From assembly GCF_900129325.1 (NCBI RefSeq), contig NZ_FQUP01000006.1, forward strand, positions 62,001 through 126,000: a DNA stretch of 64,000 bases, in the 5' to 3' direction. Of this stretch, positions 12,839 through 52,948 are shown one piece after another. The DNA comes from Kaistia soli DSM 19436. Its GTDB lineage: Bacteria > Pseudomonadota > Alphaproteobacteria > Rhizobiales > Kaistiaceae. The notes under the pieces are model-generated. The model was not told where the DNA came from. It searched no databases and saw only the letters and a program-made list of their open reading frames with translations. Each line of letters opens with the position of its first letter. The stretch's first letter is position 1. The translations under genes were made by a program, and so were the position numbers.

Positions 12839-15013
12839 CTAAGCTTGCATCTGCGCATCGTGCATCGTCCGTTTCAGGACGCGCTCGTCGGAGATCAGAA
12901 TCGCTTCTGGATTACCGATGTTGACGTAGCGGATGACATCTGACCCCGCGAGGATGCCTGTATAGGCCGCTGTCCATTGAGACTGGTTGAAGCCTCTCGT
13001 CTCGATACAACGCTCCTTCAAGCGTGGAAGCCAATCGGTTCGCTCGTTCGGCGGGTTGATGTCGTAATTTGCCGCGCGATGGATGTCGGCGACATGTTCC
13101 TTGGGGAGCAGCCCTTGTGCTCCGAGGCTGCGCACGATGTCACTCGCGAGCTGCATTCGTAGCGCGCCACCCACAATGTTGGTCCAGGCCACCGACCTGC
13201 CGTTTGCGTTCATGGCATTGCCGAACGAGATGGCGCGCAACATCAGCCGAACGAGGAAGATTGCCGCATCGCGCGAGCGGATTGGTAGGACCGTCCCTAG
13301 GACCGCAATTGCTCCGCATCGCAGGAAACCGTTCGCGACGGTGGCGTGGGAGCGATCGAACGGATGCGTATCGCAGGCGCTCAAAATCACAATAGGTGGC
13401 GGCCGCAAGTGCCCGGCCAGGCCCCACACGTCGACAAACTTCCCACCAATATTGAGCCCCCCAACGTCAGGATTGTCGGCGTGGGTACCGTGACTATCGA
13501 CGATCAGGATCGGACCACTGTAGCCATTCACGACAGAGACAAACTCGTCGGTCGACTTTGGTGCCGCCGAAATTCCGGTCAGCTTGGCTTCGGCAGCACC
13601 AGGAAGAACCTCAAGCGCCCGCCGCACATGATGCGCAATGCCGTCGCCTTCCTCGAACATTGATACGACGAGGTATTTCTTGAATTCGTCCGCAGGAATG
13701 TAGAGTGGAGGAACATGGCGCAGCTGTTCGATCAGCAGGTTGCCCGGGGTGGTCCCAATGCGTGAGACGTCGCGGGCGATGCCAAGCGGGAGATCGCCGA
13801 GCGGTAACCACTCGAGTGGGGCCTCTCCAATTATCTTGATGCCGGTGTTGGACTGCCGGAGCAGGTCCATATAATCAGGGGGCATTGTTTCGGAGAGCGC
13901 ATTTTGTACGGCGCGAAAGACTCGGGCAGTTTTGATAGGGGGAGGGTTTTCATGGTGACGAAGAAAACGCGCCAACTGGCCGACAACGCCAGCGGACCGA
14001 TTGATCAGAGCTGGAAGTCGGATGGTTGCAGCAGCGGTGGACGTGGCGCGAACCCCAACCGCGTAGGTCGTGATGCGAAGCTCTCCTCCGCGGAGCCCGA
14101 AAATGGGTCCGATCTCATTGATAGACTGTTCGTCCTGAACAGGGAGTTGGATCGTGTATCCGCGTTGGCGTTTGAGCGCTCTGAATGCGCGCATGCTCAA
14201 CTTTGGTAGCTGCGCCCTTCCGATAAGCTCGGCCGCTTGGACATGCATCGAGGGCGCTAGAAGAATGAGGTCTGGTCGCGGCGGGTTTAGCAGGTAGATC
14301 GGGCGGTCATTCGCTTGCTCGTGCAAGCTGAATACTGCGCTCGCCGACTCCGTGATGCCGTCGACATAGTCCTGCTCAGGCGACCCTTCTAGCCTGCCAT
14401 CTTCTCCTTCCGTGATGAACCCCGCCGATCGAAGGACCATCTCATTAGGCAGCGTCACGTTGTGGGAGTGATGGTGCAGCCCGGATGGCTTCATCTCCCA
14501 AGGACGCCAAGCGTCGATCATCGACAGCCTTTCGGTGATGTCGAGCCATCGGTTTGCTTCCTTCGCTTGGCGCAGCGCAGTGCGACAGTGTTGCTGCAAA
14601 CGCTCCACGGTCAGTTCATGCGGACGAATTGCACCGCCGATTCTATGGGCGCTAAGGTGCAAGGGACGAACACGCAGACCTCTCCGCCAGGTCGCCACAC
14701 GGCGCGCCATTTCAGGCTCGCTCGTTATGACGACCATGAACGGCCGACTTGGCGTAGGTTGTCCATGATCGAGTAAATTTTCGATGGTCACAGGCGACCA
14801 ATGCCACGCGCCCTGGCCCGCCCGCCGTCTCGCAAGTCGGTCGGCCGGATCCATGGCGAGTTCGGAAATGTCGCTAGGGAAGGCTGGCACGCTCACGAGA
14901 TATGGCGCGATGTGAAAAAGCCCTGGAGCGAAGCCTTGGAATGGCGACACCCTTATCGGTTCCCAAGACGGGATCGCCAGTATGTAAAAAATCTCCTCGA
15001 TCATATCCGCCAT
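12839..15013 (-). CDS. Stand-alone CHAT-domain (caspase-like) protein
   Basis: This is a 724-residue protein. Residues ~390-640 form a CHAT domain: an N-terminal APLEWLPLGDLPLGIARDVS strand, the catalytic His near 508 in ILIVDSHGTHADN, and the catalytic Cys near 547 in IVILSACDTHPFDRSH. CHAT peptidases (separase/caspase clan CD) are used in bacterial defence, for example the TPR-CHAT partner of type III-E CRISPR effectors and proteases activating gasdermins. The N-terminal ~380 residues match no family I recognise and may be the sensor. No TPR array or gasdermin-like partner is next to it. It transcribes away from the RES/Xre and Ubl operons. A start at 15004 (second Met) is also possible. 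Confidence 0.85.
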   Translation of the reverse strand: MADMIEEIFYILAIPSWEPIRVSPFQGFAPGLFHIAPYLVSVPAFPSDISELAMDPADRLARRRAGQGAWHWSPVTIENLLDHGQPTPSRPFMVVITSEPEMARRVATWRRGLRVRPLHLSAHRIGGAIRPHELTVERLQQHCRTALRQAKEANRWLDITERLSMIDAWRPWEMKPSGLHHHSHNVTLPNEMVLRSAGFITEGEDGRLEGSPEQDYVDGITESASAVFSLHEQANDRPIYLLNPPRPDLILLAPSMHVQAAELIGRAQLPKLSMRAFRALKRQRGYTIQLPVQDEQSINEIGPIFGLRGGELRITTYAVGVRATSTAAATIRLPALINRSAGVVGQLARFLRHHENPPPIKTARVFRAVQNALSETMPPDYMDLLRQSNTGIKIIGEAPLEWLPLGDLPLGIARDVSRIGTTPGNLLIEQLRHVPPLYIPADEFKKYLVVSMFEEGDGIAHHVRRALEVLPGAAEAKLTGISAAPKSTDEFVSVVNGYSGPILIVDSHGTHADNPDVGGLNIGGKFVDVWGLAGHLRPPPIVILSACDTHPFDRSHATVANGFLRCGAIAVLGTVLPIRSRDAAIFLVRLMLRAISFGNAMNANGRSVAWTNIVGGALRMQLASDIVRSLGAQGLLPKEHVADIHRAANYDINPPNERTDWLPRLKERCIETRGFNQSQWTAAYTGILAGSDVIRYVNIGNPEAILISDERVLKRTMHDAQMQA

Positions 15014-15358
15014 GCGTAGCCTGAGTTGCTCAAATGTGGAACTTGAAGGGCTACTTCTTGATCCCTTGGGTTGGCCCCATCACTAAAAACGCGACCGACC
15101 TTGACTGTGAGGTGGCCCCTCTTCTTTCGGCAATTCGGTCAGCATCGCGCCCGCATTTCAGCCATTGGCGAGTCCAACTTTCGGTCCTGAAAGTCGCCGT
15201 TTTCTCAGTCCCTATCGAGATCCCGATAGGGTTCAGCGACATACTAGGTTCTGGACATGAAGCCCGTAAACCGATCCGTAGCAGCGAAGACGCCGACGAT
15301 CTCTATAGTCAGACCGCTGCATATGGACATTTGTGGCCGCGCCTGCGTGGAGAAGTCG
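15014..15358. other. Intergenic region between the CHAT gene and a small ORF
   Basis: No coding frame of quality is seen in 15014-15358. The region must hold the CHAT gene promoter on the minus strand and any promoter for the small plus-strand ORF at 15359. Confidence 0.4.
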
Positions 15359-15733
15359 ATGCCAAAGTGGTTGAAGGCGGTACTGCGCTTCTTCGTCGGC
15401 GAGCCGATCGCCCAGCGGCCAGCTTCCAGAACGTCCCGGCCGACAGGCGCTGCTTCGCGCCAGCGATCTTATCCGCTCATCGGCCTCAAGGAGCATGCCG
15501 GAGAAGGTAGGCCGGAAAGGCTTCACTGGAAGGCGAGCCATCCCTCCACGATACGTCGCTTCAAGGCGGAGGTGACGTGCTCCCAAGGGCACGGCATCGC
15601 GCTTCGCGACCACACGATCGAAGCCGACGGCCGCGTCGTTCCCAGCATCGTGTGTAGGACTCCGGGCTGCGACTTCCACGAGATCGTCCGCCTCGAAGGC
15701 TGGCGGGCAGGCAGGATTCCCGCCGCGATCTAG
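15359..15733 (+). CDS. Small protein with possible zinc-ribbon motif
   Basis: This is a 124-residue reading from the ATG at 15359 (MPKWLKAVLRFFVGEP); the frame is open from further upstream. The C-terminal third is well formed: VTCSQGHGIALRDHTIEADG, then VPSIVCRTPGCDFHEIVRLE. The Cys/His spacing (C-x3-H and C-x4-C-x2-H) suggests a metal-binding ribbon. I do not recognise the family. Its stop overlaps the tail end of the convergent RES toxin gene by 4 nt. The arginine-rich middle (~residues 18-55) looks less constrained, so the gene may be partly decayed. Confidence 0.42.
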   Translation: MPKWLKAVLRFFVGEPIAQRPASRTSRPTGAASRQRSYPLIGLKEHAGEGRPERLHWKASHPSTIRRFKAEVTCSQGHGIALRDHTIEADGRVVPSIVCRTPGCDFHEIVRLEGWRAGRIPAAI

Positions 15734-16452
15734 GCAGCGAGGCAGTCCGCTTCGCTGCGCAGATGGTCCGGCTCGATCCGGGTACCTTTGTCGTCGAACG
15801 CGTAGAGAAGCGATATCCGCTCACCGTTCCACTGGTAGCGGTAGTGGACCGCCTGGAGGGTCTTCTCGAGAATCGACCCGTTCAGCACGGAGATCGCCAT
15901 CGCGCTGGGGCGTTCGATCGGGTGGAATAGCACCCCGTCCACATCGTTCACGATGGACTTGCCCAGGTCACGCCCGCGGTCCCGCACCTCCTCCGCGCTG
16001 AGGTGGCGCAGATCGACAAACCGGCCCGACAGCGGCGTCTTGAACATCCGCATGTCCAGGCCGATCGGGCCCTCCGAAGTGCAGGCAAGAAAGCGCTGAC
16101 GCTTCGCCACGGAGATCGCCAGCGCGGTCTGCCGGTCGGCGGCGACCTCGAGGCACGGACGGTCGGCGTCGAAGAAGGTGCTGCCGTCCGGATGGCCGTA
16201 GGCGAAGGGGGCGAGGTTCCAGTTCTGAAGGCGCGCCGACGTCTTCGGGTCCTTGTTCTCTATGTTGGCTATGCGAGCCTGCGATTGGAGGCGGGGGTTG
16301 GTCAGGTTCTCGATGTCGACCAGGGCGTCCATGCGGTCGTTGGCGACCAGGCCCTCGTACACCGAGACCGGAGGGAAACGGGACGGGATGAGCCGGAAGG
16401 TCTCGCCCTTCCATGGCACGATGGGTCCGATCTCAACCGCCACGCTGGGCAT
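15730..16452 (-). CDS. RES-domain toxin
   Basis: This is a 240-residue RES-family protein. It begins MPSVAVEIGPIVPWKGETFRLIP, has a conserved Arg in the opening strand, and ends with DGVLFHPIERPSAMAISVLN, the position of the RES Ser/Glu region. RES toxins degrade or ADP-ribosylate with NAD+; characterised members deplete NAD+. Its start lies inside the end of the antitoxin gene (20-nt overlap), the usual Xre-RES arrangement. It is longer than minimal RES toxins, with about 60 extra residues at the N-terminus and in the middle. Confidence 0.85.
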   Translation of the reverse strand: MPSVAVEIGPIVPWKGETFRLIPSRFPPVSVYEGLVANDRMDALVDIENLTNPRLQSQARIANIENKDPKTSARLQNWNLAPFAYGHPDGSTFFDADRPCLEVAADRQTALAISVAKRQRFLACTSEGPIGLDMRMFKTPLSGRFVDLRHLSAEEVRDRGRDLGKSIVNDVDGVLFHPIERPSAMAISVLNGSILEKTLQAVHYRYQWNGERISLLYAFDDKGTRIEPDHLRSEADCLAA

Positions 16453-16822
16453 CCAGGAAGCGCTTCACCTTGTAGAGGCTAGTGACCTTGCCCTCTAGCA
16501 TCACGTCGAGCGCGCTGGCACCGTCGAAATACGTGTTCTTCTTGCGCACCCACTCCTCGCCGCGCTCGTCGACGGTGAAGAGGATCCGCAGCGATTTCCA
16601 GATGCCGAAGATATAGGAGAGCCGCTCCTGCGTGTCGGCGGGCAGGTTGCCGCCCTCTTTCTTCCACTTGAAGAAGGTCGAACGACCGGGGGACCCTAGC
16701 AGCAGGATCTGCTCGTCGGTGGACAGGCCCCACCGCTCGGCCATTGCGAAGAAGGCCTCCAGCTCGGCTGGAATCCCTGATCGCCCGACGACCGCATGGG
16801 CGTCGGGGGCGCTTATCGCCAT
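16433..16822 (-). CDS. Xre/MbcA/ParS-family antitoxin
   Basis: This is a 129-residue protein. The ATG at 16822 is chosen because AAGGAG sits 9 nt upstream; a start at 16843 would begin MDKEYFKM. The N-terminal half is an HTH-like domain (LSTDEQILLLGSPGRSTFFK). The C-terminal half is the MbcA/ParS toxin-binding domain, with the typical NTYFDGASALDVMLEGKVTS and end KVKRFLDAQRGG. It should neutralise the RES toxin and repress its own promoter. A palindrome at 16838-16851 directly upstream of its ribosome-binding site is a candidate operator. Confidence 0.88.
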   Translation of the reverse strand: MAISAPDAHAVVGRSGIPAELEAFFAMAERWGLSTDEQILLLGSPGRSTFFKWKKEGGNLPADTQERLSYIFGIWKSLRILFTVDERGEEWVRKKNTYFDGASALDVMLEGKVTSLYKVKRFLDAQRGG

Positions 16823-16837
16823 CTTAAAGTACTCCTT

Positions 16838-16851
16838 GTCCATATGTGGAC
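16838..16851. promoter_or_regulatory. Palindrome upstream of the antitoxin gene
   Basis: GTCCATATGTGGAC is an inverted repeat with a single mismatched pair. It sits 16 bp upstream of the chosen antitoxin start. Two direct copies of GTCCAGATC follow at 16884-16892 and 16913-16921, between the antitoxin and the Ubl operon. An autoregulatory operator for the Xre protein is the simplest reading; the repeats might also affect the divergent operon. Confidence 0.42.
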
Positions 16852-16979
16852 TTGACGCGGTAATTAGTCCCGATGCATACATCGTCCAGATCGAGACTGT
16901 TTCGACACTTTAGTCCAGATCATTCGGTCGTCAAGAGTCCCGGCGACGTGGCCGGCATCGTACTGGAGCAAAAGACACA

Positions 16980-17696
16980 ATGACCATCTTCGACCCCGGG
17001 CGCGATCGCGCCGCCAACGAGTTCCCCGTCAACGGCGAGCTCATCAAGTTCGACGACGCCATCATCAGGGTGCGCGAGGCGCTTAATGCCGCCGGGCTGA
17101 CCCCGGCCAGCGAGTATCAGGCCGTCATGATCGAGAAGGGACGCACCACTCATATGACCACGGACGCTAGGATCGTCCTCGCCGATCATCCTACTGGTCA
17201 GTTGCGCGCCATCCTGTCCGACGAGGCGTCCGCCTTCACCGTGAACGAGATCGGGCAGATCTGGCCCACGGATCAGATCGAGACGGACGAGTTCTACCGG
17301 ATCTGGCCGGCCCCCGAGGGGCAGGACTGGGTTCTGGAGCGGAAGGACGAACCGGACGTGGTTCTCCGGCCGGGCAACACCATCGCGTTCGGCCCGAAGG
17401 GCGTCGAGCACATCGTCTCGCGCAAGCATCACGGTGCCGACAAGCTGCTGGTGACGGTCATGACGCTCAGCGGCGTGTTCCCGGGCGAAGGCGGGCTGCG
17501 CGTCAAGAGCGACGAGACGATCTCGTCTGTGCTGGAGAAGGCGGCGCGGAAGCTCGACCTCGCCGACACGTCGGGCTGGGTCGTCAGCGTGGCAGGCAAC
17601 GACATCAACGCCTCGCTGACCTTCGGGCAGGCGGGCCTGACCGGTACCGTCGAACTCGACTGGATGCCGCGCGAAGGTGGCGGCGGCAATGCTTGA
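16980..17696 (+). CDS. bilA: Multi-domain ubiquitin-like protein (BilA-like)
   Basis: This is a 238-residue protein that reads as three consecutive beta-grasp units. Residues ~13-75 (FPVNGELIKFDDAIIRVREA) and ~86-150 (FTVNEIGQIWPTDQI, then FGPKGVEHIV) resemble Multiubiquitin domains. Residues ~155-236 (KLLVTVMTLSGVFPGEGG) lead to a terminal MPREGGGGNA. A Gly-Gly followed by two residues would need trimming before conjugation, which the JAB peptidase two genes downstream could do. GGAG lies 11 nt upstream of the ATG. It is the first gene of a four-gene operon in Bil order. The symbol is assigned by content and order only. Confidence 0.85.
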   Translation: MTIFDPGRDRAANEFPVNGELIKFDDAIIRVREALNAAGLTPASEYQAVMIEKGRTTHMTTDARIVLADHPTGQLRAILSDEASAFTVNEIGQIWPTDQIETDEFYRIWPAPEGQDWVLERKDEPDVVLRPGNTIAFGPKGVEHIVSRKHHGADKLLVTVMTLSGVFPGEGGLRVKSDETISSVLEKAARKLDLADTSGWVVSVAGNDINASLTFGQAGLTGTVELDWMPREGGGGNA

Positions 17697-18126
17697 GCTG
17701 ATCTCGCGGGCGGCGTTCGAGGCGGACGTAAGCCGCCTCGACGTCGCCGCCGTGCGTCGCTGGGGGTGGGAGATCGTGTCGGCGGAATACCCCGTCCTCG
17801 ACGTCATCTTCCACCACCCGACCGCGGCGGCGCTGCGCCTGCGGCTGGAATGCGAGCAGTGGAACGAGCTGCCCCCCAGCATCCAGCTCCTGCGTGCCGA
17901 CGGCACGCCGGTGGATGCGGCGCCGCCTTCCACGAGCAGCATCTTCCATCCGTGCCCCCATCCGGTGACGGGGCGTCTGTTCGTGTGCATGCGCGGGGTC
18001 CGGGAATACCATACCCATGAAAGCCACCTCACCGAGGCATGGTCGAACTATCGCGGCACGTCGGGCAACGACCTCATCGGCATCGTCACCCAGATCTACC
18101 GCTCATGGAAGAAGACAGTAGGATGA
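17689..18126 (+). CDS. bilB: E2-like ubiquitin-conjugating enzyme (BilB-like)
   Basis: This is a 145-residue protein from the ATG at 17689, overlapping the Ubl stop by 8 nt. The C-terminal part HPCPHPVTGRLFVCMRGVRE is followed by YHTHESHLTEAW. It fits prokaryotic E2 folds: a HPN-like turn, then the presumed catalytic Cys in FVCMRG. The acidic/aromatic N-terminus (YPVLDVIFHHP) resembles the E2 beta-sheet. It should accept the activated Ubl from the E1 as a thioester and pass it to a target; in studied Bil systems the target is a phage tail protein. No E3 is present, as expected for Bil. Confidence 0.82.
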   Translation: MLELISRAAFEADVSRLDVAAVRRWGWEIVSAEYPVLDVIFHHPTAAALRLRLECEQWNELPPSIQLLRADGTPVDAAPPSTSSIFHPCPHPVTGRLFVCMRGVREYHTHESHLTEAWSNYRGTSGNDLIGIVTQIYRSWKKTVG

Positions 18127-18596
18127 CCGCGCTAAGCTGCACCACCGACACGCTCGCACGAACGATCGACATCCTGCGTGCGGGCGGCGCACGTTCCGAG
18201 GAACGCGTCGTCCTCTGGTTGGGGCCCGCCTCCGCTATCCGAGAACCGATGCCGGTGACGGAGGTCTACGAGCCGGATCAGATCACCGACATCGACTATT
18301 TCAAGCTGCCGCCGACGAGCCTGCGCGCTCTGATGACCCATCTGCGCGGCGCGCGCCTGAAGATACTGGCGCAGGTCCATAGCCACCCCGGCAGGGCCTT
18401 CCACTCGGAGGCCGACGACGAATGGGCGATCGTCCGCCATGTCGGCGCCCTGTCGCTCGTGCTGCCGGAATTCGCCCGTAACACCACGCCGGCGAACTTC
18501 GCGGAGCAGGCCGCCAGCTATCGCCTTTCCGGCGAAAACGAATGGGTTCGCGTGCCGACGGGCGGGCCGGACGGATGCATTGGAGTCGTGGGATGA
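18123..18596 (+). CDS. bilC: JAB/MPN-type deubiquitinase-like metalloprotease (BilC-like)
   Basis: This is a 157-residue protein from the ATG at 18123, overlapping the E2 stop by 4 nt (ATGA). The JAMM zinc signature is intact: VHSHPGRAFHSEADDEW supplies the two His and the Asp, with an upstream Glu in the early strand. JAB peptidases of this kind cleave after the Ubl C-terminal glycine, either to mature the precursor or to remove conjugates. The GGGGNA end of the upstream Ubl gives it an obvious processing substrate. Confidence 0.85.
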   Translation: MTALSCTTDTLARTIDILRAGGARSEERVVLWLGPASAIREPMPVTEVYEPDQITDIDYFKLPPTSLRALMTHLRGARLKILAQVHSHPGRAFHSEADDEWAIVRHVGALSLVLPEFARNTTPANFAEQAASYRLSGENEWVRVPTGGPDGCIGVVG

Positions 18597-19960
18597 TCAA
18601 CGCCAGGCAGGAGAATGCTCGGATGCTCGCATCGGCGCTCGGCGTCGACGAGGATGCCGCATCAGCCCGTCTCGAAGGACGGATCCTAGTTACGGCGGGC
18701 GAGCGCGCTTCCTGCGCCGATTGGGCCAGGGAGATCTGCGATCTTCTCGATCGCACGATGTCGGTGACGCGGGATCCGGCAGACGACGTGAAGGTCGAAC
18801 TTGTCGTCGGCGATGCCGTGCCGCGTTCGGACGCAAAGAGGTTGTATGCCAGGATCGATGCGTCGAAGGCGGTGATCGGCCTGGAACCGCCGAAGGTGGC
18901 GTCTACGGAGCCGCATCCCCTCTTCGCGGCGATCGCAGCATGTTCGGCGGCGGCGGCGACGCTGTCCCTGGCGATCGATGCCGAGGAACTTCCGAAGGTC
19001 GGCCTTCCGATCACGGTGCCGTTCGATCAGCTCGGCATCTCGCGCGAGGCTCTTGATGCGTCGATCGACCTAGACGGCGCCGCGCTCATCGGCGCTGGCG
19101 CCGTCGGCAACGCCTTCCTGCGGGCGTTGCGCCATGTCGACGCGCGGGGTACGCTGCCGATCGTCGATCCCAAGGCCGTCGGCGGCGGCAATCCGAACCG
19201 GTGCCTCTATTTCACCGAGGCCGACGTCGAGCACCCCAAGGCTGAAACTTTGGCGCGGAACGCCAGCCCCGATTTCCCGCATGTCGCGCTAATCCCCTTC
19301 AATGGGAATTTTCACGATTACGTGGCGAAGAACGGCCCTCACCGCACCGCGATCGTCACCGTCGACAGTCGTCGCGTCCGTCGCGCTATTCAGGCCGAAG
19401 TTCCCGGACGCGTGTTCGACGCGTCGACCACCGACATCCGGGCGGTGGTCGTTCATTCGCACCGCCAGCCGACTGCCAATGCGTGCCTGTCGTGCATCTA
19501 CCGCCACGTTCCCGACGAGCAGGCGCGGGAACGGGCCATCGCCGGCGGGCTCGGGATCAGCCTGGACATGGTCAGGGAAAGTCTCATCTCCGCCGATGCG
19601 GCGGCGCTAATCGCTGGCGCCCACGCGGGAATTCAGGCGGCGGCAATCGAGGGCATGGCCTATGACAGCCTGTTCAAGCAGCTGTGCGCTGAGCAGGCGT
19701 TGAAATCCGCTGAGGGCAAGCAGGTTCTCGCCCCCTTCGCGTTCGTCAGTGCTCTGGCCGGCAATCTGCTGGTGGTCGAGATGCTGCGCGTTCAGACCGG
19801 TCAGGCAGACACCAACTACTGGCAGGTCGATCCATGGGGGTCACCCATCGGGAAGCTCCGCAGCTGTCGCCCCCGCATCGTCGACTGCGAATTCTGTTCG
19901 ATCCCGCACTTCGTGGCCATTGCCGACCAGCTGTGGAGGGAGAAATCGGAGGCTGCGTGA
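18593..19960 (+). CDS. bilD: E1-like Ubl-activating enzyme, ThiF fold (BilD-like)
   Basis: This is a 455-residue protein from the ATG at 18593, overlapping the JAB stop by 4 nt. The N-terminal ~150 residues are a less conserved domain. The adenylation domain has ALIGAGAVGNAFLRAL, the acidic nucleotide contact IVDPKAVGGG, and NPNRCLYF, the E1 Asn/Arg motif. A Cys pair ACLSCIYRH near residue 300 and CEFCSIPHF near the C-terminus may hold zinc or the thioester Cys. It would adenylate the Ubl C-terminus with ATP and hand it to the E2. It is the last gene of the overlapped operon. Confidence 0.87.
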   Translation: MINARQENARMLASALGVDEDAASARLEGRILVTAGERASCADWAREICDLLDRTMSVTRDPADDVKVELVVGDAVPRSDAKRLYARIDASKAVIGLEPPKVASTEPHPLFAAIAACSAAAATLSLAIDAEELPKVGLPITVPFDQLGISREALDASIDLDGAALIGAGAVGNAFLRALRHVDARGTLPIVDPKAVGGGNPNRCLYFTEADVEHPKAETLARNASPDFPHVALIPFNGNFHDYVAKNGPHRTAIVTVDSRRVRRAIQAEVPGRVFDASTTDIRAVVVHSHRQPTANACLSCIYRHVPDEQARERAIAGGLGISLDMVRESLISADAAALIAGAHAGIQAAAIEGMAYDSLFKQLCAEQALKSAEGKQVLAPFAFVSALAGNLLVVEMLRVQTGQADTNYWQVDPWGSPIGKLRSCRPRIVDCEFCSIPHFVAIADQLWREKSEAA

Positions 19961-20148
19961 GGAGTCGAGTCGCTGGTCGCAGCAATCGAAAGACCGTTTT
20001 TCACTGCGAGCCTCTCTAAAGTGGCCTGTCGGCAATCGGCCCCGGAGCCGTCTGTCAGGGACGCGCCGCCATCCCAGTCGTTCGTCACCCTTATAGCTGT
20101 GCCCGAAAGCGGCCTGTGCAACTAACGTTGCCCCGCGCGCCAAAGGCT

Positions 20149-21727: not shown

Positions 21728-23812
21728 ATGGTCAAGCTATCAAACGTGCGCGTCGAAGGGTTTCGCCTGCTTGAAAGCGTGGATATCGCTATCGAGCAGG
21801 GGGCGACAGTTATTGTCGGCCGCAACAATAGCGGCAAAACCTCGCTCACCGAGGTGTTCGACAAGTTTCTCGGCGAGCGCTTCGGCTCGTTCCGTCTGGA
21901 GGACTTCTCGGCCGCCGTCCGCGCGCATTTCGTGACGGCGAAGGCGGCGCGGGATGTGGTGGACAGTCAGCCGGAAGCGGTCCTTGCCGCTCTCCCGCGT
22001 ATCGCGCTGACCCTCACCTTCACCTATGATGGCGCGCAGGCTGACCTCGGTCCCCTGTCTCCCTTCATCATCGACCTCGACCCGGCCTGCACCAGCGCCA
22101 TCGCTCTGATCGAATACTCTTGCTCGCTCAACAAACTCGCGCCGCTGCTCGATCTTCCCGACTACGAAGCCGGAGCGCAGAATGCCAACGAGGTGCTGTT
22201 CAGACACCTCCGTGATGCGATCCCCGCCGCATATTCGATCAAGTGTTTCGCGATCGACCCGACCGACGCAAACAATCGCCGGGCGTTCGACGGCACCGCC
22301 GAACTCAAGGCGCTTTTGCAAACCGGCTTCGTCAAGGCGCAGCGCACCTTGGATATGGGCAAGCGGGGCGACACCGACGTGATCGGCAAGCTTCTCAACA
22401 AGCTCTTCCGCACGGCGAGCAATCTCAACGCATCGCCGGGCGATCAGGAAATCGCCACTCAGCTCAAGGCCGCCGTCGCGGGTATCGAACAGACGATGCA
22501 GGGCGATTTTGACGATCAGCTCAAGGGGCTGTTGCCGGCGCTGAACTCATTTGGATTTCCGAGCCTCAACGACACTGAGCTGCGCCCGCAGACGCAGATC
22601 GACGTTGAGAGCCTTCTGACCGACAACACCCGTATTCTCTACACGGGGACGGATGGAGTCCATCTGCCCGAGGGCTACAACGGCCTTGGAACGCGCAACC
22701 TGATCTATATCCTGCTTCAGCTCGAAGCCCTGCACAAAACCTATCGCAGCACCGCCACCCGACCGGGGACGCATCTCGTCTTCATCGAGGAGCCGGAAGC
22801 GCACCTGCATCCCCAGATGCAGGAAGTTTTCATCACGCAGCTCAACGAAGCCATAGCCACGCTTTCGGAAAAATATCCCGGAGAGCCTGTCTGGCAGGTG
22901 CAGTTCATCGTCTCCACGCACTCCTCGCATCTAGCGAACGCGGCCCAGTTCGACGCCATCCGGTATTTCCTCAACGAGCCGACCGCCGCGCAAGGCGTCA
23001 GGCGGACGAAGGTGAAGGATTTCCGCAAGGGCGCGGCTGCGATTCAGTCGGACGATCGTAGCTTCCTCCAGCAGTATATGACGCTGACGAAGTGCGACCT
23101 CTATTTCGCAGACAAGGTGATCCTCGTCGAAGGCGCGACCGAAAAAATCCTGATGCCCCGCATCCTGAAACTGGTGGATGACACGCTTCCCCCGGAAGCG
23201 AAGCTCTGCCGGCAATATATCACGACGATGGAGGTTGGCGGCGCGCACGCGCAGGTTTTCTACCCGCTGCTGGACTTGCTCGAGCTGAAGACGCTCATCG
23301 TCACCGACATCGACGCTGTGCGCTTGCATCCCGATGGCAAGCTACGGAAATGCCCATGCGCGGAAGCGGAGCGGACTTCGAACAACGCCCTGAAAAGGTG
23401 GTTTGATGACGCCATGATCTCGGTCGCCGCGCTCACCGCGAAGACGCCGGCCGACAAAACGCGCCGATTCTGCCGCATCGCCTACCAAATGCCCGAGGAC
23501 GGTTCAGCTCACACCGCGCGGAGTTACGAAGACGCGCTGATCCTTGCCAATCTCGATCGCTTCGGGATCGCCGACGATGCGGCTGCCGCGCAGAACGCCT
23601 TCGATGCCGCGCAGGATTTCAAGAAGTCCGAGGAGGCTATCCGTTTCGCGATCATCGAGGCCGACTGGAACGTCCCCAAATACATCAAGGAAGGCCTCGT
23701 TTGGCTATCGGAGCCGCCGCCGCCGCCGGACGCGCCGCCGCCGATCGTTCCCGAAGACGTCCCGCCAGCGCCGGGTGGGGCTGACGCGCCAGCGGCCGAG
23801 GGGGCAGCGTGA
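21728..23812 (+). CDS. gajA: OLD-family ATPase/TOPRIM nuclease (GajA-like)
   Basis: This is a 694-residue class 2 OLD-type nuclease. It has Walker A VGRNNSGKTSL (residues ~31-41), Walker B HLVFIEEPEAHLHPQ, switch His FIVSTHSSHL, and a TOPRIM domain with the catalytic Glu in VILVEGATEKILMPRIL and Asp-x-Asp in LIVTDIDAVRL. It is immediately followed, with 4-nt overlap, by a UvrD-like helicase, which is the Gabija layout. Gabija GajA nicks DNA when nucleotide pools fall during phage infection. It is about 100 residues longer than the studied B. cereus protein, partly from a proline-rich tail (PPPPPDAPPPIVPEDVPPAP). Confidence 0.88.
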   Translation: MVKLSNVRVEGFRLLESVDIAIEQGATVIVGRNNSGKTSLTEVFDKFLGERFGSFRLEDFSAAVRAHFVTAKAARDVVDSQPEAVLAALPRIALTLTFTYDGAQADLGPLSPFIIDLDPACTSAIALIEYSCSLNKLAPLLDLPDYEAGAQNANEVLFRHLRDAIPAAYSIKCFAIDPTDANNRRAFDGTAELKALLQTGFVKAQRTLDMGKRGDTDVIGKLLNKLFRTASNLNASPGDQEIATQLKAAVAGIEQTMQGDFDDQLKGLLPALNSFGFPSLNDTELRPQTQIDVESLLTDNTRILYTGTDGVHLPEGYNGLGTRNLIYILLQLEALHKTYRSTATRPGTHLVFIEEPEAHLHPQMQEVFITQLNEAIATLSEKYPGEPVWQVQFIVSTHSSHLANAAQFDAIRYFLNEPTAAQGVRRTKVKDFRKGAAAIQSDDRSFLQQYMTLTKCDLYFADKVILVEGATEKILMPRILKLVDDTLPPEAKLCRQYITTMEVGGAHAQVFYPLLDLLELKTLIVTDIDAVRLHPDGKLRKCPCAEAERTSNNALKRWFDDAMISVAALTAKTPADKTRRFCRIAYQMPEDGSAHTARSYEDALILANLDRFGIADDAAAAQNAFDAAQDFKKSEEAIRFAIIEADWNVPKYIKEGLVWLSEPPPPPDAPPPIVPEDVPPAPGGADAPAAEGAA

Positions 23813-25539
23813 CCGGGCAACCATCGCCGGCCGTTGTAGCAGCTCAACAGGCACAGGCCCGCCTCGACGAATGCCTCGGCAACAGCCAGAATTTCCGGCT
23901 CGAAGCAGGCGCAGGAGCTGGCAAGACATATTCGCTGGTTGCGGCACTCAAGAAGATCATTGCCGAGAGCGGCCCGGCACTCATACACGCCGGGCAGCAG
24001 GTCGCGTGCATCACCTACACGGAGGTTGCCCGGCAGGAGATCGCTAACGAGATCGAGGAACACCCGGCCATCCTCGTCAACACCATCCACGGGTTCGGCT
24101 GGGCTTTCATCTCCCGGTTTCAAAAGACCCTGCGCGAGCTCGTCGCCGCGCATGAGCCGTACAGCGAGGCGATCGAGGCGGCGGGCGGGATTCAGGATCA
24201 GCAGGTGGACTACAATCTCGGGTTCTTCGGGATCGACGAGAAACGGATCACCCTCAACCATGACGACGTTCCGCGCTTCCTCGCGGCGATGCTCGCCAAC
24301 GCGAAATTCAAACGAATTTTCAGGAGCCTGTACCCCGTCCTTTTCATCGACGAGTATCAGGACACCGACCCGCTCGTGATGTCGGCGCTGGCCGATCATT
24401 TCTTCGCGCCGGGCGATGGTCCGATCACCGGGCTGTTCGGCGATCACTGGCAAACGATCTACCGCAAGGATCATGCGCTCCTCGATCTCCCCAACGTCGA
24501 GGGCATCGACAAGGGATCGAACTTTCGCTCGGTCCCGGTCATCGTGGATGTGCTCAACCGCCTGCGCCCGGAGCTTGTGCAGGAAGTCAACGACGTGGAC
24601 GGGCAAGGCGAAGCCCGCTTTTTCCACACTAACTTGTTTGCCGGCGCGCGTGTCGATTCCCGCAACGGCAAACAGGAATTGCCCGAAGACTCGCACGCGG
24701 CTTCGATCGAGCGCGTCCGTCAGACGTTACAGGACGAGGGCTGGGATTTCGATCCCGCGCGGACGAAGATCCTGATGCTCACCCACAACGCTATCGCGGC
24801 CGAGCGCGGTTATCCCAACATCGCCCGGATTTTCGATCGCAACGAGGCTTTCGCCAAGAAGGAAGACGCTGCGATTGCCTTCCTGGCCGATACCGTCGAG
24901 CCCATCTGCGCCGCCTACAAGGCGGGCAATTACGGGGAAATGTTCCGACTAATGGGCGGCATCCCGACCATCCGGAAGACGGCCGACAAGGCGCAATGGC
25001 AGGCCGACATGGACGCGGTAATCGCGCTTCGGGACACTGGGACCATCGGCGAACTGATCGACCATCTGAAAGGTACGCGACGGCCGCGATTGAGCGATCG
25101 TGTCGTCCACCGAGAAGATGAGATCGCAAAGCTGGGGCCCGAGCCGACCGAGGATGAGCCGAAATCGCTCAAGCGCTACCGTGAGCTGCGAAACGTCCCC
25201 TATCGCGAGTTGATCGCCGTCACCGACTTCATCAATGGCTTCACGCCCTTCGCCACCCAGCACAGCGTGAAGGGGGCCGAGTTCGAAAACGTGCTCGTCA
25301 TCCTAAGCGGCGGCTGGAATCACTACAACTGGCCGCAGTTTTTCGAACTGCTCACTACCGCCAAGATCACCGATAAAAACACGGGCGGTTTTCACCGCTG
25401 CCGCAATCTCTTCTACGTCGCCGTGTCCCGGCCGAAAAAGCGTCTTGCCGTGCTCGCAACGCAGGCGCTCGGCAATGCGGCGATGGAAGCCGTGACGCAT
25501 CTCTTCGAGACTGAAAACGTCGTTGCGCTGCCAATGTGA
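23809..25539 (+). CDS. gajB: UvrD/PcrA-like helicase (GajB-like)
   Basis: This is a 576-residue superfamily 1 helicase with a GTG start overlapping the nuclease stop (GTGA). Motifs in order: Walker A EAGAGAGKTYSLV, motif Ia CITYTEVARQEIA, motif II VLFIDEYQDTDP, motif III LFGDHWQTIY, motif V HSVKGAEFENVLVI, motif VI LFYVAVSRPKKRL. All are intact. In Gabija the helicase partner senses DNA ends or supports the nuclease complex. It is somewhat longer than the reference GajB, and the 2A/2B region appears compact. Confidence 0.88.
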   Translation: MTGQPSPAVVAAQQAQARLDECLGNSQNFRLEAGAGAGKTYSLVAALKKIIAESGPALIHAGQQVACITYTEVARQEIANEIEEHPAILVNTIHGFGWAFISRFQKTLRELVAAHEPYSEAIEAAGGIQDQQVDYNLGFFGIDEKRITLNHDDVPRFLAAMLANAKFKRIFRSLYPVLFIDEYQDTDPLVMSALADHFFAPGDGPITGLFGDHWQTIYRKDHALLDLPNVEGIDKGSNFRSVPVIVDVLNRLRPELVQEVNDVDGQGEARFFHTNLFAGARVDSRNGKQELPEDSHAASIERVRQTLQDEGWDFDPARTKILMLTHNAIAAERGYPNIARIFDRNEAFAKKEDAAIAFLADTVEPICAAYKAGNYGEMFRLMGGIPTIRKTADKAQWQADMDAVIALRDTGTIGELIDHLKGTRRPRLSDRVVHREDEIAKLGPEPTEDEPKSLKRYRELRNVPYRELIAVTDFINGFTPFATQHSVKGAEFENVLVILSGGWNHYNWPQFFELLTTAKITDKNTGGFHRCRNLFYVAVSRPKKRLAVLATQALGNAAMEAVTHLFETENVVALPM

Positions 25540-25830: not shown

Positions 25831-26463
25831 ATGGGCCATTCTAAATTTGATGATGCCAGCCGCGAGCGTGCTGCTTGGAATGCCGGAAAGCATGTCGGCA
25901 CCAAGCGTCCGCTCACCCAGAAACAGATATGGGCCATTCGATTCTTCCTCGATCGCGAAAGACGCATTCGTGACCGTGCGCTGTTCGATCTGGCCATCGA
26001 CAGCAAGCTTCGCGGCTGCGACCTGGTCAAGATCAGGATCCGTGATGTGGTCGCCGGTCCGGAGATCAGGGCTCGCGCGATCGTCGTGCAACAGAAGACG
26101 GGGCGGCCGGTCCAGTTCGAGATCACAAGCGACGTACGAGCCAGCATGCTGGCTTGGCTGGAACGGCGCGGCGGCACCGTTGAGGACTATGCCTTCCCGA
26201 GCCGCATCGATCATGCGCACCACATGAGCACAAGGCAGTATGCTCGCCTAGTCGACGAGTGGGTCACCGCGATCGGCCTACGCCAAGAGGAATATGGCAC
26301 TCACTCGCTCCGTCGCACGAAAGCCTCCATGATCTACAAGGCGACGGGCAACATCCGCGCCATCCAGATCTTGCTCGGTCACTCCAAGATTGAGAACACG
26401 GTCCGATATCTTGGTGTCGACGTGGAGGACGCTCTGCTGCTGGCAGAGCAGACGGAAATCTGA
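25831..26463 (+). CDS. Short tyrosine recombinase
   Basis: This is a 210-residue, mostly catalytic-domain integrase. The active-site residues can be followed: Arg in SKLRGCDLVKIRIRD, Lys in VVQQKTGRPVQ, His-x-x-Arg in GTHSLRRTKASM, His in LLGHSKIENT, and the nucleophile Tyr in TVRYLGVD. The N-terminal arm-binding domain is almost absent, so it probably uses short core sites. It follows the Gabija-like pair after 291 bp and is closed by a hairpin terminator. Small recombinases of this type are common next to alphaproteobacterial cargo genes and may have brought in this island. Confidence 0.9.
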   Translation: MGHSKFDDASRERAAWNAGKHVGTKRPLTQKQIWAIRFFLDRERRIRDRALFDLAIDSKLRGCDLVKIRIRDVVAGPEIRARAIVVQQKTGRPVQFEITSDVRASMLAWLERRGGTVEDYAFPSRIDHAHHMSTRQYARLVDEWVTAIGLRQEEYGTHSLRRTKASMIYKATGNIRAIQILLGHSKIENTVRYLGVDVEDALLLAEQTEI

Positions 26464-26630: not shown

Positions 26631-27797
26631 CTAAGTGCAATTGCTCCTGATGCAGGCGTCTACGATCACATCCAGCACTTTTTCGATCTTGTCGAAGGGA
26701 TAGTCGTCGCTGGCGGTCGTTCTGACAAACTCATCCCGTTGCCTACTTTTCTCTGACCCACGCTGATCAATGGCGCCCTGGTACTCTCCGGCCTTGTCAT
26801 CGAAATTGGTCCATCTAATACGGCAGCCATTCGCAAGCTTCAGATAGCACTCAATCGCAGCGGCTCTGCCGTTGATATCTGCACGGTGCTCCCCGGTGGG
26901 CCCAATGGTCGGGAAGCTTCTGAACTCCTCGAGATCAGGCAGTTTTACAGCATTTACGTCACGCAGCTTGGACAGTGCCGCCAATGACCCAACGCCCGCG
27001 GCATCATTGTCAAAGATTGCCAGAACGCCGTCCGTTTTTTGGATGCTGCTCAGGCCTCTCATAAAATTCTGCAGATTGCCGTGACCACCGAAAGGATAGT
27101 TGCTTTCCATATCGACGTATCGGAAAAAGTCCTTGATATCTGGACGCAAGATATCGAAGGCGTGCCGAATAATTTCCGTGTCGCTGGTGCCCTCTGTAAC
27201 CAGAAGGAAGCTCTGGTTACCACATCCAACAGAGAAGTCTTTCCGCTCGAAGTATCCACTTTCGACGATGTCCATGAAGTCCCAGACAACCATCAGATCA
27301 AGGTTCTCAGGACGTTCGGCGAGCACTCGCAGCATGTCTTCTGCACTGAGGCGCTCCAGCAGTGCCGTCAAATCCCAAGCTGGAGAGGCCAGAAAGTGGA
27401 CACCGACCTTCTCGATGAGGTGCCCGTAGTAATGTTGTGGCAAGATGCCGAAATTGTCATCGTCCCCTTCCCAGTCGGGGATCAAACTCAGATCAGCATT
27501 GCGCACCAGGTCCAGCGTTTCGCCAAAGCTGATATCGTGGGGCTCATCGTAAGTCACCCACGGATTGGAGAACCGACGCTCGATCGCCGGCAGTGTCGAA
27601 CCCATCAGCTCAAGCCGGGTCACCAGATCGCGCAGCGGAGCTTGGAAAATCTCCACGGGGTCTTCGTCTTCTCTGCCCTCGCGCCGCACAAACGTGCTGT
27701 GCTTAGGTAGGAAAATAGACTGGTGGGTGCTGGTTGAGAAATTGCCGCTTTGTTCGACGACGAATTTTCCAAGCTTGAGATCAGAATAAGTGCCCAT
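26631..27797 (-). CDS. HEPN/Toprim-associated domain protein
   Basis: This is a 388-residue protein from the ATG at 27797. It opens MGTYSDLKLGKFVVEQSGNF, typical of the HEPN_Toprim N-terminal domain. The second half is a TOPRIM-like domain: Glu in FLLVTEGTSDTEIIRHAFD, and Asp-x-Asp in VLAIFDNDAAGV. Such proteins occur in defence neighbourhoods and are suspected nucleases. It faces the recombinase tail-to-tail and ends the defence island. Position and family suggest antiphage activity, but no mechanism is established. Confidence 0.82.
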   Translation of the reverse strand: MGTYSDLKLGKFVVEQSGNFSTSTHQSIFLPKHSTFVRREGREDEDPVEIFQAPLRDLVTRLELMGSTLPAIERRFSNPWVTYDEPHDISFGETLDLVRNADLSLIPDWEGDDDNFGILPQHYYGHLIEKVGVHFLASPAWDLTALLERLSAEDMLRVLAERPENLDLMVVWDFMDIVESGYFERKDFSVGCGNQSFLLVTEGTSDTEIIRHAFDILRPDIKDFFRYVDMESNYPFGGHGNLQNFMRGLSSIQKTDGVLAIFDNDAAGVGSLAALSKLRDVNAVKLPDLEEFRSFPTIGPTGEHRADINGRAAAIECYLKLANGCRIRWTNFDDKAGEYQGAIDQRGSEKSRQRDEFVRTTASDDYPFDKIEKVLDVIVDACIRSNCT

Positions 27798-28366
27798 GAA
27801 GGCAACTGTAGCACCTAGACTTATGAGCTTCAGGTGCCAGACAAATGTATTCACATATTCGACGTCGCCCGCGAAAAGCTGACATGGGGCTGCGGGCCGT
27901 CCGCATCTTGAGCGGCAAATGGCAGATTTCAGCAGTTCACATCGAGGGCGCCAATGACGGCAATGGGGTCGGGTCCAGAAGGGCAACTACACGGCACTGG
28001 CTACCGGATAGCTGACAGTCCGGATACGGCCCCGTACCGGACGTTGAGATACGTGGGGTCCCGGGTGTCGAGGCGCTTGCTGCAAAGGCAAAGGCGGCCC
28101 CTTCTCCTCGACCCTCGCATCGCCGGCGAGAGCAACCAGGCCTGCCGAAGCGCCGATGGTCGCCGCCGACGCCAGCGGGAAGCCGCAGCGATCCAGGTAT
28201 TTCTCCGATCCGTTCGACATCATGATGGCACTCCCCCTCGTCGTCCACGGCGCACGATAGCAACCGCTCCGCTCTTTCTCATCAAGGGGAGCGTGATACG
28301 GCGAACCTGCCTCGATCATGCCACCCTCGCACAATGATGAGGAAGAATGCAGCGGCCGCGTTCGCC
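27798..28366. other. Region without a convincing gene
   Basis: Several overlapping open frames exist on both strands, but all are rich in Arg/Pro/Gly as expected for non-coding GC-rich DNA. One minus-strand frame contains CGFPLASAATIGASAGLVAL, which might be a gene scrap, but no family is evident. The region marks the transition from the defence island to metabolic genes. Confidence 0.35.
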
Positions 28367-51574: not shown

Positions 51575-52789
51575 TCATGACGCTCTAATTATCTCTCTGA
51601 GCTTGGAATTCCATATATCCAAAGCGTCTCTCTTTATTTTAATACTCTGTGTATGAATGTAATGCTTCAAAAGCGTATGCGTGGCAGCATTTCCAGCCGA
51701 GTGCCCCACTATAGTTGCAATAGTTTCAAGAGAAATACCGAGTTCCGCCATTGAGGTCGCCGCAGTTCTCCGAAGATCGTGAGTAGCAAAACTTTCAATA
51801 GGACAATCCTTTCGGCGCTTGATAATTGCTCCGCCAATCTGCGAGGCGGTGGCGGCAGCGCCCCGCTCGCTTTCAAAAAGAAGCTCTGAGGTGGAGTAGT
51901 TGAGCCGCTCCATCACAATATCTTTGGCAAGACCATCAAGTGGAGTAGCTCTGGGAGAGCCATTCTTCGATCGCTCGGCAGGCAGGTGCCAAACCCAATT
52001 TGAGTCGATTTCGGAACGAGCCATGCCTCCGATCTCGCCAATTCGAGCACCAATGCACAGCTGCAACCTAAGTGCGGCCACATGGCTAGGGAGCATGTTA
52101 GAGGAGGCGAACCAATGCCAGGCTGTCCTAACTTCGTCCGCACTGAGCACCCGGCTACGAGCCTGGCCGGCATCGTAGGTGGGAAGCCCCCAGATCGGAT
52201 TGGTCTCGATGAGGTCAACGGAAATAGCCCAGCGAAACATTGTGCTGATAGACTGTCGTCGGGCCTCGGCCTCTCTAGTCATACCGGCGTCTGCGACAGC
52301 ATCCAGCAATTCACGAAGATCCCGGCGACGGAGATCATCCGCGTACCTAGTAAGGACAGGCAGGAGAGCCCTCTTCAGCCGACGTTCGATTTCGACGGCA
52401 GTGCGAAGTCTCCCTCTGACACGCCTGTGACAATAGCGTTCGATCAGTTCTGCGATCGTGGGCCGTGCGGCCATCAGAACTTGGGCCGCATCCTCCTCGC
52501 CGACTAGATCGCGACCGCCCCTGGCCGCTGCGGCGAGATCGTTGGCGCGCTCGCGAGCCTCGGCTAAACCAACTTCGGGGAATCGGCCCAAAGAACGCCG
52601 TCTGACCTGACCGCCTTTGATACGGTAGCTCATATCCCACGTTTTTACGCCGGAAGTCGCGACACGGATGGCCAAACCAGGGCATCGGATATCGGGCACA
52701 CGATATGGGGCTTTCTCCGGATGGAGCGCCTCAACTGATCGCGCGGTCAATGCTATTCCCGATTTAGTAGCGCCTGATCCACTTACCAC
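51575..52789 (-). CDS. Tyrosine integrase of an integrative element
   Basis: This is a 404-residue integrase with a GTG start at 52789, preceded by GGGAGG. The N-terminal Arm-DNA-binding domain of the P4/DUF4102 type is present (LTARSVEALHPEKAPYRVPD, GLAIRVATSGVKTWDMSYRI). The core-binding domain follows. The catalytic domain has Arg in LQLCIGARIGEIGGMA, His-x-x-Arg in FATHDLRRTAATSM, and His in IVGHSAGNAATHTLLKHYIH, with the nucleophile Tyr in KHYIHT. It probably integrates the element that includes alpA and the Rep-like gene. Its 5' side faces the truncated glycosyltransferase. Confidence 0.93.
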   Translation of the reverse strand: MVSGSGATKSGIALTARSVEALHPEKAPYRVPDIRCPGLAIRVATSGVKTWDMSYRIKGGQVRRRSLGRFPEVGLAEARERANDLAAAARGGRDLVGEEDAAQVLMAARPTIAELIERYCHRRVRGRLRTAVEIERRLKRALLPVLTRYADDLRRRDLRELLDAVADAGMTREAEARRQSISTMFRWAISVDLIETNPIWGLPTYDAGQARSRVLSADEVRTAWHWFASSNMLPSHVAALRLQLCIGARIGEIGGMARSEIDSNWVWHLPAERSKNGSPRATPLDGLAKDIVMERLNYSTSELLFESERGAAATASQIGGAIIKRRKDCPIESFATHDLRRTAATSMAELGISLETIATIVGHSAGNAATHTLLKHYIHTQSIKIKRDALDIWNSKLREIIRAS

Positions 52790-52948
52790 GGAGTCGTCCT
52801 CCCGTTTTCCGTCGCAACCGTGTCGCAACAAATTTATCGGATCTTACCAAACTGTGCCACACCTCTCCGACCGTTGGTGCGCAATTATCGGCGGTTTTCT
52901 GCCATTAATTGTGCACTTTCGAGTTTGGCTGGATGCAAGCTGAAGTGT

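Follow-up and report, generated by a model that had tools for sequence, protein, structure and literature searches.

Four genes for ubiquitin-like protein conjugation form an operon at positions 16980..19960 of a 64,000-nucleotide stretch of Kaistia soli DSM 19436 (contig NZ_FQUP01000006.1; hereafter the window), and a divergent xre-res gene pair of the toxin-antitoxin (TA) type faces it across a short control region. All on the forward strand, the operon encodes a ubiquitin-like protein (Ubl, BilA-like; 16980..17696, 238 amino acids (aa)) with three predicted beta-grasp domains and the tail REGGGG-NA; an E2 (BilB-like; 17689..18126, 145 aa, ATG at 17689) whose Cys100, Glu106, His108 and His113 make up the CEHH motif; a JAB/JAMM peptidase (BilC-like; 18123..18596, with an alternative upstream ATG at 18105); and an E1 (BilD-like; 18593..19960, 455 aa) with GAGAVGN, NPNR, Cys365 and two CxxC pairs. 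A sequence-only reading of this DNA had described a complete Bil-type operon in the order Ubl-E2-JAB-E1 with short overlaps. We confirmed the order and found overlaps of 8 nt between Ubl and E2, 4 nt between E2 and JAB (22 nt if JAB starts at 18105), and 4 nt (ATGA) between JAB and E1; the motifs cited in that reading (GGGGNA, FVCMRG, VHSHPG...DD and GAGAVGN...NPNR) were all present. It did not mention the three-domain architecture of the Ubl, the upstream xre-res pair with its control region, or a small conserved gene at 15257-15733.

Profile and structure comparisons supported a complete Bil-type conjugation operon. In Pfam, the E1 matched E1-N (3.4e-80) and ThiF (6.4e-14), the E2 matched Metal_CEHH (3.5e-9), and the matches of JAB to Prok-JAB (6.2e-5) and of the Ubl to Multi_ubiq (0.0053) lay below the Pfam cut-offs. 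The best matches among PDB sequences were BilD 8tyz_A for the E1 (E 2.4e-9), BilB 8tyz_C for the E2 (E 1.4e-5), and BilC 8tyx for JAB (E 1.2e-17), as the depositors of 8tyz, 8tz0 and 8tyx name these proteins. The AlphaFold model of the E2 (pLDDT 91.3) had a UBC-like fold and resembled 8tz0_C most closely (TM score 0.74, 23% identity by structure), which speaks against the possibility, raised by the earlier reading, that the 145-aa protein lacks an E2 fold; matches at E<=0.001 were three chains of 8tz0/8tyz only, and ordinary UBC enzymes appeared from E 0.02 up. The Ubl model (pLDDT 81.9) contained three beta-grasp units with multi-ubiquitin proteins 9d5a and 9cd2 as best fold matches, and whole-chain TM scores of about 0.24-0.36 in the rows listed support the domain type, not the arrangement. 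Compared by their PDB titles, the multi-ubiquitin proteins 9d5a, 9cd2, 9d5b and 8u38 share tandem beta-grasp domains with the window Ubl, which differs in its GGGGNA end and its partner, a CEHH E2. The GGGG tail occurred in 13/13 aligned family proteins; in the annotated Ubl of Bradyrhizobium barranii plasmid pBb1S5b (L008:6676-7221), by contrast, the terminal part no longer follows the family, and this tail is missing. The E2 residues Cys100, His108 and His113 were present in 22/22 aligned proteins and Glu106 in >90%, not all, and the JAMM metal site (Glu33, HSHP and SxxD) was kept in 5/5 aligned JAB proteins. Cys365 of the E1, conserved in 6/6 aligned E1s, aligned to BilD Cys417, whose role is described, along with the CEHH residues of the E2, in PMC11354881.

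On the PADLOC models, the window operon scored 2.6e-4 for BilB, 1.1e-13 for BilC and 1.6e-6 for BilD, with no BilA match, whereas a type I Bil operon (locus L218) with the same gene order scored 2.6e-39, 3.9e-41, 1.3e-59 and 4.5e-137 for BilA, BilB, BilC and BilD, respectively. The sequence-only reading had further proposed an ISG15-like tag attached to phage tail protein, as type I Bil reportedly does; its Bil-type part stood, and its ISG15-like type I part fell, that label being rejected on the PADLOC scores and on three, not two, predicted Ubl domains. A fragment of 8tyz_A, the solved type II E1, matched the E1 of 37/37 family loci at 7e-10 to 5e-23 (L006-L042; 32 from genome contigs and 5 plasmids, duplicates included) and one further open reading frame (ORF) in L108 (4e-5). 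It matched no E1 in the seven loci taken as PADLOC BilD matches, which were strong and near full length in L065-L068, weaker or partial in L069-L070, and weak in L071. Because the type I profile scores are low and the type II E1 matches all family E1s, type II Bil appears to be the closest assignment for the operon, even if 8tyz itself is a distant relative; we take 8tyz, 8tz0 and 8tyx to be the type II Bil of Chambers et al. 2024. With that system it shares an E1 with a catalytic Cys, a CEHH E2, a JAB and a Ubl, and it differs in its distant E1 and E2, its three-domain Ubl, the RES-Xre pair at the site where other loci of the family carry CapH+CapP or WYL genes, and an extra zinc-ribbon-like gene. 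With type I Bil (Millman 2022, Hoer 2024) it shares the four activities and the gene order, and L218 even carries the same RES-Xre cassette; besides the PADLOC results, it differs in having three predicted Ubl domains against the two beta-grasp domains of the type I Ubl (PMC11354881). Sulfur-transfer and CBASS profiles, which the sequence-only reading had allowed for, did not claim the operon: for the E1, NCBIfam ThiF reached 26 of 275 bits and MoeB 12 of 377 bits, far below their cut-offs, and the PADLOC CBASS E1-E2 matches were as weak as the BilD match. The operon itself is a sound find of a known kind, with a predicted three-domain Ubl, and its upstream cassette is the stronger result.

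The two genes of the cassette lie on the reverse strand. They are xre (16433..16822), which encodes a 129-aa DNA-binding partner of the Xre/MbcA/ParS type, and the adjacent res (15730..16452), which encodes a 240-aa RES-domain protein predicted to be catalytically dead, an arrangement as in RES-Xre TA modules. The xre start at 16822 was set by comparison with relatives, as the ORF extends to 16882, and both the helix-turn-helix (HTH) and the toxin-binding domains of Xre scored above the Pfam cut-offs. Homology of the window protein to RES is clear because the profile of its family matches canonical RES proteins down to 5e-38.

Canonical RES proteins follow the pattern SRF...YA...ETAIAE..H...YxSVR, and the RES proteins linked to immune operons read xxFF...LEL...QTALA[IVM]S..[KR]...F[HR]PxER or similar. 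The catalytic Glu was found in 0/19 distinct immune-linked proteins versus 20/20 canonical ones, the His in 0/19 versus 20/20, the Tyr in 0/19 versus 19/20, and the Ser in 2/19 (L179 and L181) versus 20/20; the first Arg (R23-like) was kept in 14/19 versus 20/20 and the second (R82-like) in 7/19 versus 20/20. These counts include L118 and L124; L015, L016 and L023 are in the alignment only. The putative catalytic triad of RES toxins is R, E and S (PMC12457610), and R82 is required in NatT (PMC11535050). The window protein has I at the Glu position and P at the Ser position and so lacks the R-E-S signature of a TA toxin, while a canonical RES-Xre pair in the same genome (L102, contig C4:1095119-1095712) keeps all six compared residues. 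In the RES tree, built without L118, L124, L192 and L195, the 20 immune-linked rows split from the 18 canonical ones at 100/100, and the CBASS-linked L179 and Bub-linked L181 were sisters, also at 100/100. By tree and alignment, the immune-linked RES proteins are a separate RES lineage lacking its catalytic residues.

The Xre partners differ at their ends. In rows that include near-identical loci, 21/22 immune-linked Xre proteins, the window's among them (...LDAQRGG), end in ...DAQRGG and one in ...DAQRGA, whereas 0/26 canonical Xre proteins end exactly at RGG: they continue or differ, and 12 of them read RGGW(x). The ubiquitin tail likewise ends in RGG. The idea that the Xre end serves as an E1 substrate was set aside, as the CBASS locus L179 has the same Xre end without an annotated E1. 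In NatRT, the last helix of the antitoxin enters the toxin pocket (PMC11535050), and a shorter Xre tail would fit a partner that needs no silencing.

Between xre and the Ubl gene lies the divergent control region (16823..16979, 157 bp). It contains an operator-like palindrome O1, GTCCATATGTGGAC (16838..16851), followed directly by a -35-like TTGACG toward the Ubl operon (16852..16857, +) that has a similar place in relatives, and a second palindrome O2, GTCCAGATCGAGAC (16884..16897), with one mismatch. Toward xre-res, the promoter scan found one promoter-like TTGACG-16-TAAAGT (16907..16934, -), against a mean of 0.0 in 50 shuffles. The region from xre to the immune operon was alignable over 20 immune-linked loci despite their differing operons. 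The 10 Bil loci had on average 6.3 GTCC plus GGAC words and the 10 other immune-linked loci 5.1 (Markov-1 expectation 1.62 and 1.19). Canonical RES-Xre promoters (14 regions) averaged 1.36, and family loci with Cap or WYL regulators (10 regions) averaged 1.0. The excess reached P<=0.05 under the Markov-1 model in 19/20 immune-linked regions. After a conserved ACTTG, the next [AG]GTC[CT] followed at +16 in 17/20 loci and at +17 in 3/20. One clean GTCCAGATATGGAC also occurs at the canonical RES-Xre pair of this genome, so the operator type was probably inherited from a TA ancestor.

Pfam E1-N gave a match in only 4/385 genomes of the class, the window's own being the sole one over the cut-off, and relatives were therefore sought by protein. 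This search found E1 relatives on 6 plasmids of rhizobia and at 34 loci of named genomes, which include two plasmid records already in the first set (L022 = L006 and L026 = L008) and two E1 fragments. The loci belong to Sphingomonas, Methylobacterium/Methylorubrum, Rhizobiaceae, Bradyrhizobium and Dyella and to other groups represented by metagenome-derived genomes. Phage records gave no E1 match, and three pattern matches in viral contigs included no relative, in a search that reaches close relatives only. In the 30 distinct loci of the E1 tree, RES-Xre stands divergent to Ubl and directly before it in 10, CapH+CapP-like genes (HTH plus ImmA/IrrE) occur in 12 and a WYL gene in 1; 5 of the remaining loci had no assigned regulator and 2 were ended by the contig. 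L018-L021, L008/L026, L006/L022 and L034/L035 were each counted once, L007, whose operon is cut by an insertion sequence element, was excluded from profiles and tree, and the E1 fragments L043 and L044 were not used. The RES-linked loci formed one E1 clade with support of 100/98. Compared by blastn with the nearest relative, L011, the window had a sole match at 15140-20042 (92.7%). Because this match spans just the zinc-ribbon-like gene, res, xre, control region, Ubl, E2, JAB and E1, we regard these as the unit; the flanking Borvo and Gabija genes are not common to the two. The Bil/RES locus of L017-L021 gave equal match scores in four Methylorubrum/Methylobacterium genomes and a near-equal one in another (L021), a pattern suggestive of recent transfer.

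Beyond this family, the cassette stands in front of several kinds of immune operon. A tblastn search with the window RES matched 121 plasmid records; among the 60 listed, 12 had >=38% identity and the rest <=30%, and all 12 lay divergent to a ubiquitin-like or CBASS operon (for H12 and H16, the first RES place was the one inspected). The partners were a Bil operon of the window's family on a Rhizobium leguminosarum plasmid, E1/E2 ThiF genes on two Sinorhizobium plasmids, ThiF plus JAB on two Sphingobium plasmids, a CBASS pair of SMODS cyclase and SLATT effector in Roseovarius AK1035 (L179), and Bub-like operons on six other plasmids, one of them unannotated with ThiF alone identified there. 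We call an operon Bub-like if its ThiF gene has a Multi_ubiq, DUF6791/DUF6527 or Prok-E2_E gene next to it. The 12.7-kb stretch of L179 has no annotated E1, E2 or Ubl and no match to the family profiles. L179 (CBASS) and L181 (Bub), two Roseovarius plasmids, have one stretch in common, 74% over 1.46 kb, which is the control region, a leader ORF, xre and res; as they share just this cassette stretch, the cassette has moved between operon types. The small leader ORF lies between xre and the immune operon in both.

In 337 class genomes, two RES places, one in the window and one in G271, exceeded 180 bits, and each of them lies opposite a Ubl or ThiF operon (12 of 39 places listed were taken with neighbours). 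In 398 genomes of the phylum, those above 180 bits under the RES profile were the window, G611 (L105, already known) and G617, a new one (L218); this sample matched in size and kind the one used for a Multi_ubiq search and had at least some genomes in common with it (G611). The L218 RES carries E->I, Y->E, H->R and S->C, its control element has ACTTG with sites at +17 and +62, and the cassette faces a complete type I Bil operon. Though a single positive, it was chosen solely on its score, and it extends the range of partners to type I Bil. Eight places of this search were taken, G617 plus seven of the next ten (G304, already represented by L194, and G677 and G675, with an internal stop, were skipped), and the seven lower-scoring loci kept all six residues and had no Ubl, E2, JAB or E1 profile match within 10-12 kb. 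A divergent cassette is thus common to unrelated immune operons (type I and II Bil, Bub-like, CBASS, and E1-E2(-JAB)), as expected of a Cap-type controller.

From these findings we consider it likely that 16980-19960 encodes a type II Bil system and that the divergent xre-res pair, together with its 157-bp control region, both keeps this operon silent and turns it on. We infer that the cassette is an undescribed controller derived from an inactivated RES-Xre TA module, both the repression and the trigger being part of that inference. In Pseudomonas putida the Xre-RES complex is a strong promoter-binding repressor and Xre alone a weak one (PMC12204516), and in P. aeruginosa only the NatR-NatT hexamer binds DNA (PMC11535050). 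By analogy, an Xre-RES complex on the phased GTCC...GGAC operators would repress both divergent promoters, with RES as a scaffold or sensor and no longer an NAD-degrading toxin, and a stress or infection signal would break the complex so that the operon is expressed. On the model of the solved relatives, JAB would then cut the Ubl after GGGG, the E1 would adenylate it and carry it on Cys365, and the Ubl would pass to E2 Cys100 and on to lysines of target proteins; the targets and a role in phage defence are likewise presumed by analogy. More tentatively, the dead RES might itself be the sensor, its remodelled pocket binding a nucleotide signal, NAD-derived or otherwise, that phage attack generates or uses up, and thereby breaking the repressor, so that whichever operon stands behind the cassette turns on. 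Were this the case, a dead TA pair would have given rise to a new family of immune-operon controllers.

Several observations weigh against this interpretation. The window RES scored below the Pfam RES cut-off (2e-4, 21.8 of 23.2 bits), and among PDB sequences its single sequence matched no solved RES and its profile gave only a chance match to ribonuclease J (0.55). The kept Arg residues, and the Ser in L179 and L181, indicate that some ligand chemistry may remain, and the canonical proteins counted were those found by the RES profile (9 of 29 candidates, L102 and L117-L144, plus others). In the control region, no promoter on the + strand passed the promoter scan, the GTCC/GGAC excess was not significant in 1/20 immune-linked regions (P 0.085), and 1/14 canonical and 1/10 Cap/WYL control regions passed P<=0.05. 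Within type II Bil, the RES-Xre association may be one event, so that reuse rests on the other operon types. None of the upstream neighbours of 10 canonical RES-Xre pairs belonged to these immune families by Pfam (0/10), with 2 lacking any Pfam match and not all being the nearest gene, and the 17 control RES loci in all (10 by Pfam, 7 by our own profiles), none with such an immune operon, are a limited set. Regarding the operon type, a profile search of genomes with the PADLOC BilD model left the window's own genome without a match, and the 8tyz E1 sits on a long branch of the E1 tree, so that type II is the nearest label and not a close match.

The main competing explanation is that RES-Xre is a working NAD-degrading TA module that serves the defence as a suicide arm or, through addiction, retains the island in the genome. 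Records do annotate relatives as 'RES family NAD+ phosphorylase', TA modules are generally common in defence islands, the DNA-binding and toxin-binding domains of Xre are intact by Pfam, and the first Arg is mostly kept. We nevertheless think it unlikely: Glu, Tyr and His are lost in 19/19 immune-linked RES proteins and Ser in 17/19, residue losses that disfavour a working toxin given that canonical proteins keep Glu, His and Ser in 20/20, the Xre tail is shorter, and addiction alone would leave the phased common element and the swap between immune operons unexplained. Alternatively, the pair could be a conditional effector, with Ubl conjugation to Xre or RES freeing an altered RES activity, as its close linkage to conjugation operons, the one or both Arg residues kept in some RES proteins and the RGG end of Xre might suggest. 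The cassette also fronts a cyclase-SLATT pair at L179, where no E1, E2 or Ubl was annotated or matched by profiles, and 12/30 family loci carry CapH+CapP-like genes instead, which makes this reading decidedly improbable.

Rivals concerning the operon itself fare no better. The type I reading, with an ISG15-like tag placed on phage tail protein, would agree with the four activities, their order and the weak PADLOC BilC and BilD matches, and it too has only a slim chance of being correct, because there is no BilA match, the scores are far below those of a true type I operon, the Ubl has three predicted domains, and the E1 is matched by the type II structure sequence, which matches no PADLOC-BilD locus. 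A sulfur-transfer or cofactor cluster with a ThiF/MoeB-like E1 and a JAB could account for the ThiF domain of the E1; with NCBIfam ThiF and MoeB scores far below their cut-offs, a CEHH E2 in the operon and defence genes on both sides, we regard it as scarcely credible. We therefore retain a type II Bil operon under the control of the xre-res cassette.

Among described regulators, the closest parallels are the Cap controllers CapW, CapH+CapP and CapK+CapS (PMC13373217), one- or two-gene cassettes at the same place by CBASS, Bil and Bub operons; the window cassette differs in being a RES-Xre TA pair with no kinase, protease or WYL domain. RES-Xre TA modules such as P. putida Xre-RES, NatRT, MbcTA and ParST (PMC12204516, PMC11535050, PMC12457610) share with it the gene pair, the domain families and a palindromic promoter element, and repression by the complex, expected for them, would hold likewise for the window pair. 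The cassette differs from them in its lost R-E-S residues, its shorter Xre tail, and a control element that is extended and shared with an immune operon. CapW or CapH+CapP was assigned to 219/544 Bub operons and CapK+CapS to 59 (231 in a wider search; PMC13373217), and by these counts a good share of the 544 had no assigned controller there. Neither 'Xre' nor 'RES domain' occurs in the main text of that survey of Bub-operon regulators, and we found no title or abstract opening naming a pairing of RES/Xre with immune operons, in a search that covered subscription papers and preprints thinly, so that a description elsewhere is possible. Bacterial ubiquitin-like and CBASS immunity has few known regulators. 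If our interpretation is correct, the cassette would act as an interchangeable switch in front of five or more types of immune operon. Some of these operons would thereby gain a controller open to testing, and the pair would clearly exemplify a toxin that became a regulator; a known trigger could tie immune expression to cell metabolism or damage.

The small conserved gene at the far end of the unit (15257..15733, +) is a 158-aa ORF with a zinc-ribbon-like TCxxGH...CxxxGCxFH motif. Its family, of about 110-160 aa, reads HPST..FKAxxTCxxGHxLTL..H....G.V.PSVVCxxxGCxFHExVxL and has no Pfam match. The gene is convergent to res in the window and lies on the res strand in L014-L016, L022 and L023. 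It was present in 10/10 distinct RES-linked loci and in 8/20 other E1-tree loci (18/30); of these 8, 7 carry it near capP and one carries it after the E1. The Bub-like, CBASS, E1-E2 and PADLOC-BilD loci searched, a set drawn up before L218, all lacked it. By this distribution it belongs to the Bil genes rather than to the controller, which makes it a candidate extra Bil gene; as a guess, its product could be a metal-binding partner for target choice. Kinship with DUF6527 of Bub operons received no support (profile comparison probability 2.6). The gene is overlooked in annotation, being absent, for example, from the gene list of the L008 record.

Borvo, Bil and Gabija genes together form a compact defence island in the window. 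The Borvo gene BovA (12839-15013, -; PADLOC 2.4e-204) encodes a CHAT-domain protein beside the cassette, and Gabija GajA (2.4e-268) and GajB (3.7e-244), also identified by PADLOC, lie downstream of the E1 (21728-25539, +). Phage-type integrase genes at 25831-26463 (+; short, 210 aa) and 51575-52831 (-) are possible island edges, and a HEPN_Toprim_N domain protein (26631-27986, -; 2.5e-47) may be encoded by a further defence gene.

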